A DNA stretch of 64,000 bases from Siphonodentalium dalli (Eukaryota > Mollusca > Scaphopoda > Gadilida > Siphonodentaliidae). The translations under genes and the position numbers were made by a program. A model generated the notes under the pieces. It ran no database searches. It saw only the letters and a program-made list of their open reading frames with translations, and was not told the DNA's origin. Positions 8,541-57,045 of this stretch are shown here, in pieces. The first letter of the stretch is position 1. Each line of letters begins with the position of its first letter. The DNA lies in NCBI GenBank assembly GCA_032622095.1, contig CP136061.1, positions 8,008,734-8,072,733 on the forward strand. The letters are read 5' to 3'.

Positions 8541-8774
8541 TGACAATTTCCATCACGTATACGGAATTCAAGGAAACATTACATGTTTTATTTGACTTTT
8601 GTCTTACAATTCATTCTGAATTATTCTGAGAAACTGAACAACATATAACATGTAAAGCGCATCTAAAAAAGACATATATCCTTGTCAATTCCAAGTAAAG
8701 CATGGTATACCGCACTTACAATATCATCTGGTAAATCCCGGTGTATTATCATTACATACACAACATTAACCAAT

Positions 8775-9061
8775 GTTTCTTACAATTGTTAGGACATAAA
8801 ACAAAACATCCATTACCCTGCAGGGAGCCCCACACATATATATAAGCACATAGAAGAGTGTCGTCTGCTCATGTTTGTCTGGGGCTCTGTATGGGTGAAA
8901 TTATAAAATTGCTAAAGAATACAAGAAAAAATTATTAAAATTGTAAAAAATTGTTAGGCCAATGCATTCTCTTATATATGCGAGGCGACCTATGGTCGAC
9001 TCGCATATATAAGAGAATGCATTGGCACAGGGTACGACTGGATTTGATATGGCGGGTCACA
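8775..9061. mobile_element. 5'-truncated copy of the TGTGACCCGCC hairpin MITE
   Basis: It matches the right two thirds of the element at 56311-56770: the CTGCAGGGAGCCCC block, an AT-rich linker, one full 69-bp hairpin (8958-9026), and the terminus GGCGGGTCACA ending at 9061, followed by TATA. The left terminus and left hairpin are missing. The usual AAATCCCGAC between hairpin and terminus is shortened. Confidence 0.85.
8958..9026. repeat. 69-bp hairpin module (family entry)
   Basis: Two 33-bp arms (GCCAATGCATTCTC to GCGAGGCGACC) pair with one mismatch around a 3-nt loop. Full 69-bp copies lie at 8958-9026, 12407-12475, 12554-12622, 47121-47189, 55453-55521, 56363-56431 and 56650-56718. A 59-bp copy with a deleted centre is at 42588-42646. 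Right half-arms alone are at 46868-46900 and 55347-55374. All copies are nearly identical. Confidence 0.95.
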
Positions 9062-9175
9062 TATATACAGCAGGGATGGTGCTAATAAGGTCTTAGTTTT
9101 CAGATTGATTGGACTCCACCTTGCAGAGTTGTTTCCATTTTGGATTTGGTTGTAATGTGTTTTGTAGGTTCAGCG

Positions 9176-12194: not shown

Positions 12195-12380
12195 TACACA
12201 ACATTGTATAATGCCATTTTAATTATCCATGTGTATATTTATAAAACATTTAGGAATAAAATGGTTGTATAATTACAGGATGTGCATATAACTTTTAGTT
12301 GCAAAACTCGGGGGAGGGAGTGGGAGGTGGGGGATTGGATTACAAACAAAATTACCTTTTATTTCTGGGTATCCAGTTAA

Positions 12381-12757
12381 CCCTTTACCCAACAGAAGGG
12401 CCCTGTGCCAATGCATTCTCTTATATATGCGAGTCGACCATAGGTCGCCTCGCATATATAAGAGAATGCATTGGCTTAACACATTAAAAATTATAAAATT
12501 GTTAAAATTGTAACAAAAAATGGTAAAAAGTGTTAAAAAAAGATTTTTTTTAGGCCAATGCATTCTCTTATATATGCGAGGCGACCTATGGTCGACTCGC
12601 ATATATAAGAGAATGCATTGGCACAGGGTATAACTGTAACCATCACAATGTGGTCAATGAGCCGATTCCAATGATATCCATATTTGTATGGTTTTATTGA
12701 GACAGACCGAAGATATTTTAGGCTGTTGAAGCTTTATTTGGCCGGTTGGGTAAAGGG
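12381..12757. mobile_element. piggyBac-like MITE carrying the hairpin pair
   Basis: TTAA (12377-12380 and 12758-12761) flanks perfect termini CCCTTTACCCAAC and GTTGGGTAAAGGG. Inside is the module 12401-12628: CCCTGTGCC, hairpin, AT-rich linker, hairpin, GGCACAGGG. About 130 bp of unrelated sequence follows to the right end. At 377 bp with no coding capacity it is a MITE. A damaged sister copy is at 55339-55674. Confidence 0.8.
12401..12628. repeat. Two-hairpin module, CCCTGTGCC...GGCACAGGG
   Basis: Two 69-bp hairpins (12407 and 12554) are separated by a 78-bp A/T linker, and the module is bounded by its own inverted ends CCCTGTGCC/GGCACAGGG. The same bounded module, with a different, longer linker, lies in the TA-flanked element at 56357-56724 and partly at 46857-47195. 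That suggests it moves, or is exchanged, as a unit. Confidence 0.75.
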
Positions 12758-12914
12758 TTAAAGATAGAGATGCAAGTAAAATTTCACTCCAGTTGGAAAT
12801 GTGAAACCAGTAAAAAATTGGGACACAAGGGTTAATATAACATAGATGTCAGGACATGACATTATCAACACCAATCATATTCACTTACCTATAGAGTTAC
12901 TGCGCGTTGATTAT

Positions 12915-13139: not shown

Positions 13140-13188
13140 AGCTTTGATTTTTATTTATTTTTAATTGTAATGCATTCCACTCTTGCAG

Positions 13189-13710
13189 ACTGGAGTGATG
13201 TCGGATGATTTTAGTGGTCGCCCAGCAACCAGCGGTATCGATCAACTTTTGAGACTTCAGGTTGGCACAGACACCTATAGAGGGAACCCGTTACTAGGGT
13301 CAGCTATATTAGGATCCGATGGAATCGGCCGTGGATTAGGACGCGGTCGTGGATTAGGACTCGGTCGTGGGTTGGGAGGCGGTTTACTGACCGGTGGCTT
13401 GGGCGGTAGATTAGGCGGCGGATTAAACGGCGGCATAGGCGGTGGATTCGGCCGTTTACCAGGCGGCGGCATAGGCGGCGGAATAATCGGTGGAATAGGT
13501 GGATTAGGCGGCAGATTAAACGGCGGCATAGGCGGTGGATTCGACCGCTTACCAGGCGGCGGCATAGGCGGCAGAATAATCGGTGGAATCGGTGGATTAG
13601 GCGGCAGATTAAACGGCCGCATAGGCGGTGGATTCGACCGCTTACCAGGCGGCGGCATAGGCGGCGGAATAATTGGTAGAATCGGTGGATTAGGCGGCCG
13701 TTGGTCATAA
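13189..13710 (+). CDS. Glycine-rich protein, probable last exon
   Basis: The open frame of 173 codons plus stop follows a good splice acceptor (ATTCCACTCTTGCAG, ending 13188) and reads in phase 0, matching the phase-0 donor at 5087. The first 35 residues are not repetitive (TGVMSDDFSGRPATSG, then GIDQLLRLQVGTDTYRG). A GRGLGRG tract comes next, and then three 31-residue (93-bp) repeats built on GGRLNGGIGGGFDRLPGGG with GGIIGGIGG. The frame ends with GGRWS and TAA. There is no signal peptide here, which favours joining to the secreted exon at 4791. No AATAAA follows; a weak TATAAA variant is near 13752. The sequence resembles silk-like or shell-matrix Gly-rich proteins, but repeat bias makes homology claims unsafe. 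Confidence 0.6.
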   Translation, partial: TGVMSDDFSGRPATSGIDQLLRLQVGTDTYRGNPLLGSAILGSDGIGRGLGRGRGLGLGRGLGGGLLTGGLGGRLGGGLNGGIGGGFGRLPGGGIGGGIIGGIGGLGGRLNGGIGGGFDRLPGGGIGGRIIGGIGGLGGRLNGRIGGGFDRLPGGGIGGGIIGRIGGLGGRWS

Positions 13711-41660: not shown

Positions 41661-44490
41661 ACCTGGTAAAATGAGAAGAGTGTTAGTTGCGGCATCACTT
41701 TGTTCAAAAATTCTGCCTAAACAAAATAACAAGTCTTGGGAAATTTGATACCATATATAGTTGACAGTGGTTAGCATTTTTGTTGCAATAAATCGAATGT
41801 GATAACTAAAGCGCATTTTGAAGAAATAATTGCGCTTAATAAATATTTATTCTTTTGACATTTTTATTGTTCTATGATATGCATGCATGCTGGTCTTCAG
41901 ATAGCATATATTCCTTTATGTGGTGTACTAGCCTTACAATTAAGTTGTTTTCTGTGTATGCCAATCGAAACTTTCAACATTCGAAATAGTCAATGCCAGG
42001 AAACCCCTCAAATCAGACAATGTGTTGGTGAGTCTTCTGTTAAACATGTTCTATATATCAATAATCACATCTAGTTAAGTTATCCTCATAATTTGCTATG
42101 ATGTTGGGTGGGCGGGGGTTTTGCTAATTTTATATGGTGCGGGTAGGACAAACTGAAGCTGTAAAGTATCGTTATTTGTTCTAAATTTGTCATATTCGTG
42201 GTCTTTTGTTATTCTGCGGAATGAATAAAAGAAAAGTCGCGATACATGTATCTCATCCAAAACATATATTGTAAAATATTTTAATAATGAATGTGTCAGT
42301 TTTTGCAAACCGACTATACTTGAGACATCTGTTCCTGTGGTTTTGCAAACACCGGTTCAGTAATTATTAAAATATTTATGTTATGTTTCATACAGACACT
42401 AGCTTTTTTTTTTTATAAAATCGCTTGGATTAACGCAAATAAAACCTTTAGAAATAAAATAAAGGTACTGTTTCTTGACGGCATCAGTTTGCCCTACCAG
42501 CTTCATATCAATTCAACATGACCCACAGTATAATCGTCGCAATTTAGTACGAGAACTTATTAACAAAAAAAGAAAAGAAAACCTTGTGCCAATGCATGCA
42601 TTCTCTTATATATGCGAGTCGACCATATATAAGAGAATGCATTGGCCTAAAACAAATTCTATCATTTTTTAATTGTTAAAAATTTAAGAAAAATGAAAAA
42701 AATAATAAAAATAATGTTAAAGAATGTAAGAAATAATGATAAAAAATTATAAAAATTGTTAAAAAATGGAAGAAAATAAAAAAAAAATGTTAAAGAATGT
42801 AAGAAAAATGAAAGCTAATAATAGACAGCATCGCCAAGTTCCTAATTCCTAATCACGAACTTCATAATCTAGGTTACAATACACCAAATCATTTACATAA
42901 GCCTCGGTACTACCCTTGACATTGAGAAACAAATGACAACGAAAAAAGAAAAAACACCAACCCCTCCCATAAACTATTCGCCATTTAACAGCCGCAACCT
43001 TTCACCACGTGGCTATATTTGACGTTTCTCGCGGGAAACACGTGGTGTAAATGTCCTACTAATGTCGTGTCAGGCATGAAATTTTTGGATATGATATTTG
43101 TAAAAATAACTACTTTGAGCAAGATTAATCTCCATTTCTATTTGACCACCCTACCGGAGTGCTTCACGTCACTTTAACAGGCACACCATTGGTTTGTTAT
43201 GAATGTATTATTTTACAAGTATACATATAGTCTATAAATCTCCATTGCTTCAGCACTCACCTTATCACTTATACTTGGTCAATGATTGTGCGTACTGTGG
43301 AAAATTATGTCAGTTAAACTGCACCGGTTATGGTCTACTGGTGAAATAACTCTATGCATATAGCGTGTCAGTTTTATATATGTACGGTACCATTCCCCAC
43401 TAATCACTGATTCGAAATTCGAACAACGAGAACAATTTCAACCTATATGTGGTGTATAGTTTCCAACTAATGTTGTGTCAGGCATGACATTTCCAAATGT
43501 TGATAATTGTTTACCCCAAACCCATGCATATACATGTATAGGGTAGGTGAGTTTATTTCCACAGGTCGAATTCCGGTAAATTTGGTACACAGCGGACGTT
43601 GATTTGGAGATCCGATCGAAGCCGTAATGGAGATTTCCACATTTATGCATTAGTGGGAGGAGCTTACGGATGCTAGGATACAAGGTGTTTGAAGAAATAG
43701 TCATTTTTTAAAAACATTTTCAATAAAAAAATATTTTAAATATTTTAAATTTGTATTTAAAAAAAAAAAAAATGGTTCTTTTTAGACAACTTATTGCTCA
43801 GTTTAACAGTTAAACAATTAAAATGAAAAAAAAAAAATTAACGCCGTTATAACATCTGACAGGGTGACCCGAGGCACCACACCACATTTGGTTGAACTTT
43901 GTCCATATCTTACTCTTTAATAATATAGAATATATACATCGCAGAATATTCATTTTCACCATTAATTGTGGAAGTGAAAAACATTGTTATAACCATGGAT
44001 TAATGTCCAACGTCATGGGTCAAATATAAATTTCAGTACATTATGATTTGACATTAAACAATTTTTTTAAATATAGGCAATTAAACACTGAAAGTTTGCA
44101 CGGATATCAACATTAAGATGAAGAAAGATGCATTATAATGTGCATTGCAGCAAGCGACGAAAATATCTCCTAATAATGATTTGATTGACAGCTATAGAAA
44201 GATCAATTGTGGTTATATCCACATACCCTAGCACTCTGCATTTTAATAGAACTGGTGTAACAAAATCCCCATTCAGTTTTTCCTGGATACGCTAAACAGA
44301 AGGATGCAGCATTGACACCAATTGACGAATCTCAGATTATTGACAGGCAGCGGTAGCTGACCAATCGCGTTACGGCAAACGAAGTTCAAGGCCAAACACT
44401 TCCTAAACAAAAGAGCTTCCCGAGACCCGAGGATGCATTTACGCTCGTTTTAAGACTTAGTTTAGCACGATAGTAGAACTCCTGTCCGAG
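41661..44490. other. Gene-free stretch
   Basis: Apart from the degenerate hairpin at 42588-42646, A-rich GTTAAAGAATGTAAGAAA linkers near 42660-42810 that resemble MITE interiors, and the dispersed repeat at 43088-43172, nothing is recognised. Several short frames lack support. Confidence 0.5.
42588..42646. repeat. Degenerate lone copy of the 69-bp hairpin
   Basis: The hairpin here has lost part of its centre and right arm, and the left arm has a 4-bp CATG duplication. Upstream CCTTGTGCC and downstream TTGGCCTAA match the module edges. No TIR of either host family is nearby. Confidence 0.85.
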
Positions 44491-46395: not shown

Positions 46396-46811
46396 TCAAA
46401 GGCAGATTAATATAGTTTTTATACATTTCGGATTTTTAAAAGATATAGTTTGCAAAAATAACTTTCGTTAAGAGGGACAACAAAACAGAACAATGAATCA
46501 AACAACTCACGACCGATCTGTAAACAACGTCTCAAAGAAATCCAATATTCTACAATATTATACCTGATTCAGTAATTATCGTTTCGATGCGGCATACAAG
46601 TTTCTTGTTTCAATTGATTCTACTCATCCTTATCATATGTACAAGGTATCAAGCAATCAGACGTGGAGCAGTTCTATCTGACATTATGTAACATAAAACA
46701 AAACTTCAACTTTAAACGATGTGTATATTGTAGTACTACATACAATTTATTATGTATGAACATGACATTCTGATGAAAATAGTATTCATACCAATTTACA
46801 TAGTGTATATA
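46396..46811. other. Gene-free stretch
   Basis: No feature is recognised. Confidence 0.5.
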
Positions 46812-47340
46812 TGTGACCCGCCATATCAAATCCAGTCGGAAGTCGGGATTTTTTTACCCTGTACCCAGGTCGCCTCGCATATATAAGAGAATGCATTGGC
46901 ATAACAATTTTTTATCATTTTTTTAAAATAAATGTTTCTGACAATTTTTAGGACATAAAATAAAAAAAACATCCATTACCCTGCAGGGAGCCCCACACAT
47001 ATATAGAAGCATATAGAAGAGTGTCGTCTGCTCATGTTTGACTGGGGCTCTGTATGGGTGAAATCATAAAATTGTTAAAGAATACAAGAAAAAATTATTA
47101 AAATTGTAAAAAATAGTTAGGCCAATGCATTCTCTTATATATGCGTGGCGACCTATGGTCGACTCGCATATATAAGAGAATGCATTGGCACAGGGTAAAA
47201 GAAATCCCGACTTACGACTGGATTTGATATGGCGGGTCTATTAACCCATAGAGAGCCCCACACAGCCTGGAGCAGACGACACTATGTAGTGCATGCTTCC
47301 ATCTATGTGAGGCTCCCTGTGGGTGATATGGCGGGTCACA
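46812..47340. mobile_element. Hairpin MITE, TGTGACCCGCC family, composite copy
   Basis: Termini TGTGACCCGCCATATC and GATATGGCGGGTCACA are flanked by TA. The left hairpin is reduced to its right arm (46868-46900); the right one is complete (47121-47189). Beyond a second, internal terminus (GATATGGCGGGTC at about 47228) lie about 105 bp that resemble the CTGCAGGGAGCCCC block in reverse, so this copy is a fusion of two related elements or a tandem partial duplication. Confidence 0.85.
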
Positions 47341-48840
47341 TATGTTATCATGCATATTCCACATTAATTTGTGACTTTTCGCATTAAACTCATTCGTTCA
47401 TGCATAGAATGTATTGGGATTCGACTACAAAAAACCGGCATCGTTGAAGGTACTAAGTCAAACTTAATAATGACTACAAGTCTATAATATAAATTAGTGC
47501 AAAACATATTGCTATTAGTCGATGCATGGATGCAGATAGTTCGTTGGAAGTACAAACAGTTTAAACAACATCTATTTCTTCCCAAAGACATATAAGTTTA
47601 TCGCTTCCGTGTCGATTACCAATGCACCCAATGCCTTCGCGGATCAAACGTGTGAAAAATCAAATGGAATGCAGCCTCGTTTCCTGTGTGTTAATACGAC
47701 ACATCCATTATAGGTTGTGACATCCATTAGTTTACAACTTTATTGAGACCAATATATCAGGTTGAATAACACAGGTGCTTGTCCCGGCGATTCGAAATGG
47801 CCATCGGCTTAATATTACACTCAAAACCAAACACGACATACTTTAAGAATAGTTTGTTTTTGCTTCCTTTGTGTGACGTCACACCGGTAGATCAAAGAAA
47901 AAATCCGCCCCATAACTCAGGTGAATGATTGTCAAAAGTGATTAGCACGTGTACCAATTTCTGACGTCATTCATGTTATGATTGCTTTTGAGAAACTGAC
48001 ATGTCTGACTGGGTAGGACCACAGGCGATTGTAACAATGTTTTATATATATAATATTAACACTAAAGGTTGGTCACTGCGGGTGGGGGTGGGGGGGGGGG
48101 GGGGGTGATATTGAGTAGCCAATTTTGATGCGGCCGTGTAGGGGTTAATGAGCACCGATTTTGTTCGGATAAACGGCAAAATGTAAGATGACTTACGCTT
48201 ACAAAAAGATTAATATGCGAATTTTGAAACCTTGTGCCCTCTCTTCTTGAATTTTACAATATTTGGTATTAATAACTGTTTTCAACGACAAAACATTGGA
48301 GATTGATCGGGGATCCATCCGCATTCCATCGCGAGACCGCAGTGAATTTATTGATATTCAGCGATTGGCGGAGCTATTTGTGGATTATTTACTGGAAATT
48401 TGAACTTACTTCCGGGTTACAACTTCGAGTTAGATGAAGTGCTCGCTGCCCCCGTTGATCCAATGCGACAAACAGCGCTCTCACTTACGCTGAGGTCGTA
48501 ATAGCATTTGTTGAGGCAATTTGTTGATAACAAACAGCATGCCGTCTTATTTATAAACAAAAGTCAGTTGACATTCGGAAAAAAATAAAGAAGTATTTTT
48601 TCAATTCGACCAATCCGAAAAAAAAATATTGTCTATAGTCACTTATATAAAATCATCTAATGTATCAAATACAAACAAATTTTATTGGAATAAGGAAATA
48701 AGCAACATATGAAGCGATCACCGCTTATTATCCTGTTTGTACACGTGAGTTATTGTACGTTTAGCCGTTTACCGGAATTAAATCGGTGCAGATTAACCCC
48801 CGTCGGCCAAGGCGCCAAACCAAATTTGAATATGGCCGAC
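47341..48840. other. Gene-free stretch
   Basis: A poly-G run lies near 48086-48105. The frame beginning at 48709 has a hydrophobic start (MKRSPLIILFVHVSYC) but no other gene sign before it enters the next array. Confidence 0.5.
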
Positions 48841-49855: not shown

Positions 49856-50284
49856 AGTCCGAAATCATATCAGAACATTACATTGTTTCCCTTCTTTGCA
49901 ATAGTATTGTCGTCTATTTGCGGAGATCCCCGAATTCGCGGAGGTCCCCTAAAATTGTCGAAAATATGTTGATTTTAATTAGGGAACGGGTGCGTATATG
50001 TCAATTGATACGTATTTTAAACAAATAACGACACGATCATCATAATAGCAACCACCCCGGTGGGTGTTTATACCTAAGGCGTGTGTGAATGATGACGTCA
50101 TATAATTTTACTATATATATTTCTATACGATGGAACGATTTTCAGGAAAGAGTGTATGCTATTTAGCGAAATTGACACGTGACTTCCGATTAGCAACTGT
50201 TTAAAATTGCGGAAGTGGAACAACGAGATGAAATGCCACGGCTCATGACGTCATTTACGTCATGTTGGCTTCGTAGGTGCAACA
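49856..50284. other. Gene-free spacer between two arrays
   Basis: Nothing is recognised apart from TGACGTCA-type words near 50092 and 50248. Confidence 0.5.
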
Positions 50285-52540
50285 TTAACCCTTTCACGAT
50301 GGGAGACGCGCTAGTGCAGCATTAATGTTTTTATTACGGGAGCTGTGCTGGTGCAGCATTAACCATTTCACGACGGGAGCTCTGCTGGGCAGCATTAACC
50401 CTTCCATGACGGTAGTTGAGTTGGTGCAGGATTAGTTATTTCATGAAGGGAGCTGCGTTGGTGCATCATTAAATATTTGATGATAGGAGCTGCGTTGGTG
50501 CAGCATTAACTCTTTCATGACGGGAGCTGCGCTGGTGCAGCATTAATTATTTCATGAAGGGAGCTGCGTTGGTGCAGCATTAATTATTTCACGACGGGAG
50601 CTGCGTTGATGATGGGAGCTACGCGTTGGTGCAGCATTAACTCTCTCATGACGGGAGCTGCGCTGGTGCAGCATTAATTATTTGATGACGGGAGCTGCGT
50701 TGGTGCAGCATTAACTCTTTCATGGCGGGAGCTTCGCTGGTGCAGCATTAATTATTTCATGACGGGAGCTGCGTTGGTGCAGCATTAATTATTTGATGAC
50801 GGGAGCTGCGTTGGTGCAGCATTAACTCTTTCATGACGGGGGCAGCATTAACTATTTCATAACGGGAGCTGCGCTGGTGCACCATTAATTATTTCAGGAC
50901 GGGGCTGCGTTGGTGCAGCATAACTTATTTCATGATGGGAGCTGCATTGGTGCAGCATTGACTCTTTCATGACGGGAGCTGCGCTGGTGCAGTATTAATA
51001 CATTTCATGACGGGAGTTGCGTTGGTGCAGCGTTAATTATTTTATGATGGGAGCTGCGTTGGTGCAGCATTAACTCTTTCATGACGGGAGCTGCGTTAGT
51101 GTAGCATTAATTATTTGATTATGGGAGCTGCGTTGGTGCAGCATTAAATCTTTCATGACGGGAGCTGCGTTAGTGCAGCATTAATTATTTGATTATGGGA
51201 GTTGCGTTGGTGCAGCATTAACTTTTTCATGACGGGAGCGGCGTTGGTGCAGCATTAATTATTTGCTGATGGGAGCTGCGCTGGTGCTGCATTAATTATT
51301 TCATGACGGGAGCTGCGTTGGTGAAGCATTAGTTATTTGATGATGGGAGCTGCGTTGGGGCAGCATTAATTCTTTCATGACTGGAGCTGCGTTGGTCAGC
51401 ATTAATTCTTTCATGATGGGAGCTGTGCTGGTGCAGCATTAACCTTTTTATGACGGGAGCTGTGTTAGTGCAGTATTAACCATGTTATGACGGGAGCTGC
51501 GCTGATGCAGCATTAATTCTTTCATGACGGGATCTGTGCTGGTGCAGCATTAATTATTTAATGACGGGAGCTGCGTTGGTGCAGCATTAACTAATTCATG
51601 ACGGGAGCTGCTCTGGTGCAGCATTAATTATTTCATGACGGGAGCTGCGTTAGTGCAGCATTAATTATTTGATTTTGGGAGCTGCGTTGGTGCAGCATTA
51701 ACTCTTTCATGACGGGAGCTGCGTTAGTGCAGCATTATTTATTTGATTATGGGAGCTGCGTTGGTGCAGCATTACTCTATCATGACGGGAGCTGCGCTGG
51801 TGCAGCAATAATTATTTCATGACGGGAGCTGCGTTGGTGCAGCATTAATTATTTGATGATGGGAGCTGCGCTGGTGCAGCATTAATTATTTCATGACGGG
51901 AGCTGCGTTGGTGCAGCATTAGTTATTTGATGATGGGAGCTGCGTTGGTGCAGCATTAACCCTTTCATGGCGGGAGCTGCGTTGGTGCAGCGTTAACCCT
52001 TTGGTGACGGGAGCTGTGCTGCAGTAGTAATTCTTTCATGACGGGAGCTGTGTTGGGGCAGCAATAATTATTTCATGACGGGAGCTGCGTTGGGCAGCAT
52101 TAATTCTTTCATGATGGGAGCTGTGCTGGTGGAGCATTAACCTTTTTATGACGGGAGCTGTGTTGGTGCAGTATTAACCCTTTCATGACGGGAGCTGCGC
52201 TGGTGCATCATTAATTCTTTCATGACGGGAGCTGTGCTGGTGCAGCATTAATTATTTAATGACGGGAGCTGCGTTGGTGCAGCATTAACTCATTCATGAC
52301 GGGAGTTGCGCTGGTGCAGCATTAATTATTTCATGACGGGAGCTGCGTTGGTGCAGCATTAACTATTTTATGATGGGATATGTGCTGGTGCAGCATTAAC
52401 CCTTTCATGACGGGTTGCGTGCTGGTCCAGCATTAACCCTTCCATGGTGGGAGCTGCATTGGTGCAACATTTAACCATTTCATGACGGCAGCTGTGCTGG
52501 TGCAGCATTAATTATTTTATGACGGGACCTGTGTTGGTGA
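50285..52540. repeat. 37-bp minisatellite, about 60 copies
   Basis: The unit is CATTAATTATTTCATGACGG followed by GAGCTGCGTTGGTGCAG. Alternating ATTATTT/ACTCTTT and GCGTTGG/GCGCTGG variants give 74-bp and longer higher-order periods. Copies are more diverged at both edges, as expected of an array renewed from its centre. Confidence 0.95.
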
Positions 52541-54620: not shown

Positions 54621-55338
54621 CCATCTCCATGTCGTTCTAATGAGTTTTTGGCATTCCAATTTCACAATCTCGACAAATGGTGACCGAATTAAGTCACTTG
54701 AACAATTATATCTTCTCAAATGTTATATTTATATCGGGATGGAAATCAGGGAATTCCTATAATGATCTAGCAACACAGATACATAGAAGAAAGCATTACA
54801 AGTATATTTATATCAATCTGTTTAACAGATACATATATTCATTCAAACTGAGGGACCTTGAATCGTCAGAGGATTGCATATTAGAATGGCTCATGTATAT
54901 ATTATAACACGATTGAGTCTGACCCATTCAATATAGTTTCCACAAAAAAAAGTTACAATTGCCAAGAGATATGGAAATGTAGAGCAGGCCTGTTCAAAAA
55001 TATTGATCACAGTTTGCAGTCAAATATCGTTACTTCTGAGATAAAGAAAAACTCAGTTCCGTAGCACGTGAATCCAATTTTGACATCTGACAAGGGTATA
55101 TCTGTCCGATACAGAGGATTTCTTTCATTTGTTAGAACATACTGATCGCCTAACATAAACAACTCAAAATATCGCTGTGTCGGGCACATGTAGCTGCTAT
55201 ACATGCATAACATCAATTCTTTTCAACTGAAAATTATTAGCCAATATATAGCACCAGAACTGAGGAGCACCTGGACATATCATTAAAACATGTGTATCTT
55301 ATTGAAGATATGATGAACTAGATTGATTGACCAACCAA
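54621..55338. other. Gene-free stretch
   Basis: No gene or repeat is recognised. Confidence 0.5.
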
Positions 55339-55674
55339 CAGAAGGGCCTCGCATATATAAGAGAATGCATTGGCTTAACACATTAAAATTATAAAATTGC
55401 TAAAGAATGTAAGAAAAAATGGTAAAAAGTGTTAAAAAAAGATTTTTTTTAGGCCAATGCATTCTCTTATATATGCGAGGCGACCTATGGTCGACTCGCA
55501 TATATAAGAGAATGCATTGGCACAGGGCATAACGGTAACTATCACAATGTGGTCAAGGAGCCGGTTCCAATGATATCCATATTTGTATGGTTCTATTGAG
55601 ACAGACCGAAGATATTTTAGGCTGTTGAAGCTTTATTTGGCCGGTTTTGGCCGGTTTGTTGGGTAAAGGGCTAA
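55339..55674. mobile_element. Damaged piggyBac-like hairpin MITE
   Basis: It matches 12381-12757: CAACAGAAGGGCC, a half hairpin (55347-55374), A/T linker, a full hairpin (55453-55521), the CATCACAATGTGGTCA-type right flank and GTTGGGTAAAGGGCTAA. The left terminus and left hairpin arm are lost, and GGCCGGTTT is doubled near the right end. Confidence 0.85.
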
Positions 55675-56014: not shown

Positions 56015-57045
56015 TGTTATATAATAGAAGAATGAGCCTATGTATATTTTGAATTGATCGAGTGTTGGAGCCTCAACAGCGAAGTCTGGCAGAGAGTTCC
56101 AGCTATTTACCACCACCTGCGTGAAGAAATATTTTCCTATGGCCTTTGTTAACAATGGGCATCTGTAGCTTTTTATTATGTCCTCTTGTTTTTCCTGATG
56201 AATGTCTTTCTAATAGGTCACAGGCATTGATATTGTAATGACCATTCAACAGTTTATATACCTCGATTACATGGATTAGATCTCCATAACAAAACTGGCA
56301 TACAACAATATGTGACCCGCCATATCAAATCCAGTCGTAAGTCGGGATTTGTTTTACCCTGTGCCAATGCATTCTCTTATATATGCGAGTCGACCATATG
56401 TCGCCTCGCATATATAAGAGAATGCATTGGCCTAACAATTTTTTATAATTTTTTTAAATAAATGTTTCTTACAATTTTTAGGACATAAAATAAAAAAACA
56501 TCCATTACCCTGCAGGGAGCCCCACACATATATAGAAGGATATAGCAGAGTGTCGTCTGCTCATGTTTGTCTGGGGCTCTGTATGGGTGAAATTATAAAA
56601 TTGTTAAAGAATACAAGAACAAATTATTAAAATTGTAAAAAATTGTTAGGCCAATGCATTCTCTTATATATGCGAGGCGACCTATGGTCGACTCGCATAT
56701 ATAAGAGAATGCATTGGCACAGGGTAAAAAAAATCCCGACTTACGACGGGATTTGATATGGCGGGTCACATATGATATTCGATATTTTAAAGACATCAGA
56801 TTGAGTCTTATCATTCGGTCTCGGAAGCATAGAGTTTTGATTTGACGAACTAGTTTCGTTGCTTTTCTTTGTATTTCTCTAACACAATGCTTTGATATTT
56901 GTGATGCGGGCTCCATGCAGAGTTACAGTATTCGATGATAGGTCTGACCATGCTTATGTAGAGCGACTAGAAAATGTCGACGTCCAAGTTAGTGAAAATT
57001 CTGTTGACTGTGCCGATGATTTGAGAAGCTTTATTGTTTTAGGAT
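56015..57045 (-). pseudogene. CR1-like LINE reverse transcriptase, C-terminal part, split by a MITE
   Basis: In minus-strand order the pieces are: SLYISMVRPIIEYCNSAWSP (from about 56970), RKATKLVRQIKTLCFRDRM then LNLMSLKYR (about 56880-56790), the MITE, GDLIHVIEVYKLLNG (about 56270), SSGKTRGHNKKL, and finally NSWNSLPDFAVEAPTLDQF (about 56080). These are the standard landmarks of the RT C-terminus of CR1/L2/Rex-type LINEs. At least two frameshifts and the insertion make it inactive. No microsatellite tail is evident below 56015. Confidence 0.85.
56311..56770. mobile_element. Complete hairpin MITE, TGTGACCCGCC family
   Basis: The 460-bp element has near-perfect inverted termini of about 50 bp (TGTGACCCGCCATATCAAAT with CCAGTCGTAAGTCGGGATTT) and TA on both sides. 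Inside is the module 56357-56724: hairpin (56363-56431), AT-rich linker with a CTGCAGGGAGCCCC block, hairpin (56650-56718). It interrupts a LINE coding region, which proves mobility. Confidence 0.9.

Follow-up and report, generated by a model that had tools for sequence, protein, structure and literature searches.

Why does the same hairpin stand, in inverted pairs, inside two transposable elements that differ in their ends and target sites? The question arises from the window, i.e. the whole stretch of 64,000 nucleotides of Siphonodentalium dalli DNA analysed here. Its first-pass annotation had reported seven full copies of a near-perfect 69-bp hairpin, two of them paired in a TTAA-flanked MITE and two in a TA-flanked MITE. 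Three origins had been offered: insertion of a foldback transposon into each of the two hosts, gene conversion, or a fold kept by selection. The seven hairpins were recovered (at positions 8959, 12408, 12555, 47122, 55454, 56364 and 56651), along with an eighth that is shortened, and the 26-nt arm gave 18 matches in the window at up to 3 mismatches, against none in each of 100 shuffles. The two hairpin pairs, their bounds and the target sites of their hosts were likewise as described (Table 1).

Folded singly, five of the seven window hairpins form the complete stem (26 bp within the core of 67 nt), with a T-C mismatch and a 5-bp tip. The hairpins at 47122 and 56364 have one extra mismatch each. 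The two inverted hairpins of a module can also pair mutually along their whole length.

Table 1. Elements of the window that carry the hairpin, and their parts (positions within the window).
Feature	Position	Strand	Remark
Family A MITE, complete, TTAA on both sides	12377..12761	+	Among the 40 best genome matches, the other 39 have 97-99% identity
Family A two-hairpin module	12401..12628	+	Bounded by CCCTGTGCC...GGCACAGGG
Family A left hairpin	12408..12474	+	67-nt core; 69 counting the outer G-C pair
Family A linker	12475..12554	+	AT-rich; partial homology to B and D linkers
Family A right hairpin	12555..12621	-	Inverted copy of the left hairpin
Family A copy lacking the left end and the 5' arm of the left hairpin	55335..55674 (approximate limits)	+	
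Family B MITE (TA...TA) with both hairpins	56309..56772	.	Terminal repeats extend through the hairpins
Family B two-hairpin module	56357..56724	.	Bounded by CCCTGTGCC...GGCACAGGG; linker with additional small foldback (GGAGCCCCACAC...)
Family B copy	46810..47342	.	Left hairpin without outer arm; right end with nested small foldback
Family B partial copy	8772..9063	+	One complete hairpin (8959-9025)
Decayed single hairpin	42582..42808	+	Hairpin at 42593-42645; linker-like AT-rich tail; no known outer end

The hairpin is extremely abundant. Exact 26-nt arms number 274,080 (137,002 + 137,078) in the 2.23-Gb genome of nine contigs, with none for the reversed control, and an even sample of 20 stretches of 10 kb held 29 of them where 25 were expected from the genome count. 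The arm had no match in viral contigs. Exact left ends of the first family (A, below) occur 43,627 times and exact ends of the second (B) 19,653 times, the reversed patterns again giving none. At three places on contig C1, arms or module ends recur at a regular period, of about 11.2 kb (C1:785830-926267), 97 bp (C1:544309-544722) and 7.9 kb (C1:94237018-94292244); these are larger tandem arrays containing the hairpin.

Sorting the genome matches by their outer TIR, a step proposed with the first-pass annotation, was done on samples and revealed at least four MITE frames around the hairpin, with ends TTAACCCTTTACCC (family A), TGTGACCCGCC (B), TTAACCCTTTCATGAC (C) and TTAACCCTTTGAGTGCC (D). The module junction, GGCACAGGG, is sharp in every frame. 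When 73 ends were tabulated and read by eye, a few frames accounted for the flanks beyond it, with about six exceptions; in family A the end sequence past the junction is TTAACCCTTTACCCAAC. The ends of A, C and D have only TTAACCCTTT in common, and those of B are unrelated to them. Among 20 C1 loci picked only by an exact arm and classed by reading, we counted nine A, five B, three D, one C, and two without a known end. These two (L040 and L044), and one more from the even sample (L013), have B-type module DNA and no B ends.

Families A and B are MITEs by their short length, non-coding sequence, TIRs, target-site duplication and high copy number. Family A is about 390 bp long; 40 stretches yielded 32 right ends, and 31 of these have TTAA. 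Family B measures about 459 bp, and its flanks at 20 loci are TA/TA (14), AA/AA (3) or AA/TT (3). Family C is older and ragged (20 copies or pieces were aligned), and D has one hairpin per element. The TTAA duplication and the CC[C/T]T end motif that mark piggyBac-type elements, the motif as defined in the text of PMC2872659, were found in A by count and in C and D by reading.

Longer loci were also met. L069/L110, a candidate autonomous A element, was rejected as such: some 2 kb of other DNA is nested in the linker of what is otherwise a family A copy, and the sole open frame of at least 90 codons in L110 falls largely within the A part. At L092 (C1:4495900-4497800) and L093 (C1:4549480-4551400), an insert of inverted-repeat DNA, about 1.25 kb long, splits the loop of a B-type hairpin. 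This insert holds a frame of the Bcl-2 family (L093:608-1138; Pfam PF00452, E=1.7×10−13; best PDB match, Bcl-xL), open in L093 and interrupted in L092. Their common flanks suggest that the two loci are a segmental duplicate.

The first-pass annotation was right that the termini of the two window hosts differ. Its further statement, that the linkers differ as well, does not hold in the sense of unrelated sequences: the A and B linkers have a common segment of 53 columns with 45 matches, its alignment score is reached by none of 500 dinucleotide shuffles, and linker alignment against such shuffles rejects unrelated linkers for A, B and D. The C linker does not significantly resemble the others: in its comparisons, 27 to 86 of 500 shuffles did as well. 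Families A and B share a single hairpin consensus, which 4 of 6 D copies match exactly (partly by reading). These likenesses are what would be expected if the module were a neutral passenger, present in a few source copies per family, recently exchanged between them and uniform simply through shared ancestry, playing no part in copying; the related linkers would then indicate that the modules of A, B and D derive from one ancestor. The linkers of those same modules have nevertheless diverged, an objection that returns below with the site counts.

Whether the module moves by itself was judged from its association with its hosts. Each of 40 A ends, chosen among about 100 listed, leads directly into the module, and hairpin arms are present at every one of 20 B loci, chosen among about 100 places listed and some of them for unusual spacing. 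Exact A left and right ends at most 25 nt apart were found 5 times genome-wide, each joint keeping different scraps of the module: these 5 module-less copies are separate internal deletions. This pattern misses copies with the linker kept and both hairpins lost, and its base differs from that of the 43,627-end count. No empty A host, and no amplified module-less A subfamily, was found by it. Single-hairpin A copies number 463 genome-wide. In the 28 whose loops were written out, the right loop is kept in 18, the left in 3, a hybrid in 5 and another in 2; such copies look like products of repeated recombination between both hairpins.

An A or G directly after the module end, an odd flank normally absent from the frames, was counted 1,460 times. 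Among the first 100 listed, 20 were classified; 18 turned out to have an A, B or C host in which one base was altered or added, the other 2 being hostless. Since the 40 A ends and 20 B loci all carry the hairpin, and A copies without a module are nearly absent, we conclude that the hairpin is an integral part of its MITEs and no visitor.

This bears directly on the foldback transposon of the first-pass annotation, which would have ends CCCTGTGCC and would have inserted once into the founder of each family. The sharp junction in all frames suits such an element, as do the three loci without a recognised outer end and the two hostless cases among the odd-flank ends. In family B and in L013 the module has TA at either side, which would fit a TA duplication. 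However, the A and C junctions show no evident target duplication, and the TA flanks of the B module may belong to the symmetric terminal repeat of B. With no empty A host and hostless copies as rare as 2 in 20 odd flanks, movement of the module as an independent element at the present day was rejected as the main account, and even the founder insertions seem quite improbable.

We then asked whether the hairpin varies less than its surroundings. The site counts rest on 47 copies, 30 of family A and 17 of family B, taken largely from the initial 12.6 Mb of contig C1. Nine of 40 A copies were left out beforehand for hairpin deletions, insertions or misalignment, leaving 31, from which a segmental duplicate was removed for the 47-copy count; a stricter count dropped three more near-duplicates. 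On the B side, a near-duplicate (L102) was excluded, four copies picked by exact arm were kept out of both of these counts, and loci L090-L094 were unused for site counts.

Variants present in at least two of the 47 copies occupy 2 of 268 hairpin sites versus 30 of 481 elsewhere (p=1.2×10−4); for at least three copies the numbers are 0 and 12 (p=0.0056). Removing near-duplicates gave 1/268 versus 28/481 (p=4.4×10−5) and 0/268 versus 11/481 (p=0.0096), respectively. The alignment of the AT-rich linker is less sure than that of the hairpin; with the linker left out, 1 of 268 hairpin sites has a variant in at least two copies, against 14 of 180 (p=2.0×10−5).

Singletons, which mostly date from after insertion, behave differently from shared variants. 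They are rarer in the hairpin when the linker is included (42/6184 versus 122/10693, p=0.003), and hardly differ when it is left out (43/5782 versus 42/4310, p=0.23). In the 31 copies of family A, the hairpin has 17/4121 against 25/4050 in the right flank (p=0.22) and 48/6443 in flank plus linker (p=0.04); in 22 copies of family B, hairpin (23/2867) and linker (40/4749) are equal. An early count in family A (two of 15 copies dropped), with 6/1681 hairpin singletons versus 39/2964 (p=9×10−4), was discarded as biased, many of its copies being exact-arm picks. Nor is the hairpin obviously slow-mutating, because it has more CpG than the right flank of family A, at nearly equal length (8 versus 3).

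Inserted hairpins thus decay nearly like their surroundings, and it is the source copies that keep the hairpin: shared variants are rare in hairpins and singletons hardly differ once the linker is set aside, which places the constraint mostly on source copies. Equal divergence of hairpin and host had been named in the first-pass annotation as the result that would speak against selection or independent movement, and for shared variants the two are unequal. Its proposal that the hairpin is kept by selection is favoured, in a narrower form, with the constraint seen mostly in shared variants, i.e. in source elements, and little in singletons. For the neutral passenger, the small difference in singleton rates is as expected, but shared variants occur in the linkers and outer portions of A and B elements and are almost missing from the hairpins of those elements, and we consider this explanation unlikely.

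Paired changes in the stem were examined both between families and within copies. Relative to the hairpins of A, B and D, the C consensus, read by eye from the family C alignment, differs at three pairs (4:64, 29:39 and 30:38), and each is altered on both sides. The 47 inserted copies contain 45 mutated hairpin pairs, all of them without a compensating change. As to the gene conversion of the first-pass annotation, no conversion from arm to arm is thus visible after insertion. A related explanation is that the arms are homogenised, by template switching between arms or conversion among copies, and so stay perfect without selection. In yeast, template switching has been described to homogenise inverted-repeat arms and to flip spacers (PMC8604942), and the hairpins here often lose sequence or fuse, as in the 5 hybrid loops of 28. 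Against the 45 uncompensated pairs, though, homogenisation would have to act solely in moving copies, and we regard it as improbable.

Changes that preserve structure suit RNA as well as DNA, and a transcribed hairpin might be a small-RNA precursor that controls or shields the elements. The 26-bp perfect stem with its 5-bp tip stem is, we assume, a plausible Dicer substrate. A search of the element against Rfam gave 33 matches to E=1, but none at gathering score; the best, MIR841 (E=1×10−20), reached 94 bits of the 200 required. We hold a precursor role to be very improbable.

Our preferred reading, to which we give about even credence, is that at least four MITE families contain the paired hairpin as an inherent component, which likely serves as a cis-acting structural module raising the copying rate. 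It draws on the same module and junction in A to D (with one hairpin in D), the scarcity of A copies that lack the module, the shortage of shared variants in hairpins, and the compensated changes of C. Differences in mutation or alignment may explain part of the constraint, since singletons too are rarer in hairpins when the linker is included, and the rarity of module-less A copies may merely mean that deletions are rare. Two hairpins are not strictly required, given that family D carries just one and that A copies with a single hairpin survive. Also counting against this reading are the three loci with B-type module DNA but no B ends, the lack of an exact A, C or D end among 10 piggyBac 5' ends (below), and the concentration of the site counts on one part of contig C1. 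The stricter site count adds about as much support as the TA on either side of the B module takes away.

Mechanistically, the folded pair would act in cis, favouring the copying of its host element, and the shared-variant deficit would reflect selection among copies for propagation. The active form would be a folded strand, for which we favour DNA, as a hairpin or cruciform arising during replication or during repair of an excision site, RNA being possible; the likely physical routes would be a single strand folded at the replication fork, or in gap repair after excision. New families would arise when the module acquires new transposon ends, and different transposases would then move it, piggyBac-like for A, C and D and a TA-type enzyme for B. 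More speculatively, and with considerably less confidence, the hairpin pair may be a second-order parasite: an amplification engine neutral to the transposase, crossing between TTAA and TA kinds, kept for its fold and not its letters, and giving the ends that it acquires a very high copy number.

The puzzle addressed here is that few MITEs reach huge copy numbers and most remain rare. One structural module common to several abundant families with different ends implies that ends and engine are separable. A copies without the module (5), with one hairpin (463) and with two coexist in one genome, which makes the role of interior structure directly testable.

Possible movers of the TTAA elements are present. 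With 116 of 649 candidates scored, the genome shows 128 matches to the piggyBac domain PF13843, and many of these lie in reading frames that stay open for 560-720 codons. In the 5' stretches of 10 sampled piggyBac genes no exact A, C or D end was found. Two of the 10 have TTAACACGTTGAGTGCC, with 14 of 17 letters as in the D end, one has TTAACCCTTTATCTGC, and another candidate end in the sample is TTAACCCCCG; these ends were assigned by position only.

Among known systems, the CMITEs of Acropora corals appear to be the closest precedent. They are TTAA-flanked, CC[C/T]T-ended MITE families with different TIRs and one common interior, which is better conserved than the TIRs and for which a role in transposition was proposed (Wang et al. 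2010, PMC2872659). According to the same text, they are about 100 bp long with a 75-bp interior, all have TTAA, occur in tandem arrays, and are estimated at 1,600 copies in A. millepora (PMC2872659). Here too, families with different TIRs have in common an interior better conserved than those TIRs, and tandem arrays are present. Unlike in CMITEs, family B is mostly TA-flanked with unrelated ends, the common part is a pair of near-perfect hairpins (the terms hairpin, palindrom, stem and secondary structure are absent from the main text of PMC2872659), copies are tens of times more numerous (43,627 exact A ends alone), and constraint at the source level and compensation were measured. The likeness drawn here is one of description. 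Our results extend the coral observation from TTAA families to a TA family, with population-genetic support. Besides CMITEs, the open-access literature yielded no other close precedent for nested, chimeric or hairpin-bearing MITEs or for conserved interiors.

MER6, a mariner MITE containing the V highly conserved domain of SINEs (Luchetti et al. 2019, PMC6887750), is similar in having a conserved block in unrelated kinds of transposable elements; it differs in that the V block is a SINE domain common to a retroelement and a MITE, and the abstract of that paper makes no mention of a hairpin. We would therefore rank it as a looser analogue than CMITEs.

Foldback transposons also have long inverted repeats able to snap back, and those of Drosophila, FB, have tandem repeats within their terminal repeats as a hallmark. 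In the present case such tandem repeats are not seen; in contrast to FB and to the nematode foldback transposon Tm1 (PMC3169594), the hairpins lie inside other MITE ends, as single units.

Three further features were noted in or near these elements. A small foldback, GAGCCCCACAC ... GGGGCTC, is nested in family B linkers, with a similar one in the B right end (window 47240-47335). At window positions 50268-52539 lies a tandem array whose 37-bp unit, from TTAA to TTAA, resembles the left end of family C; it is likely a minisatellite made from a MITE end. Finally, positions 13171-13710 hold a glycine-rich repetitive reading frame (GGGIGGG-type), which presumably resembles structural or shell matrix proteins.
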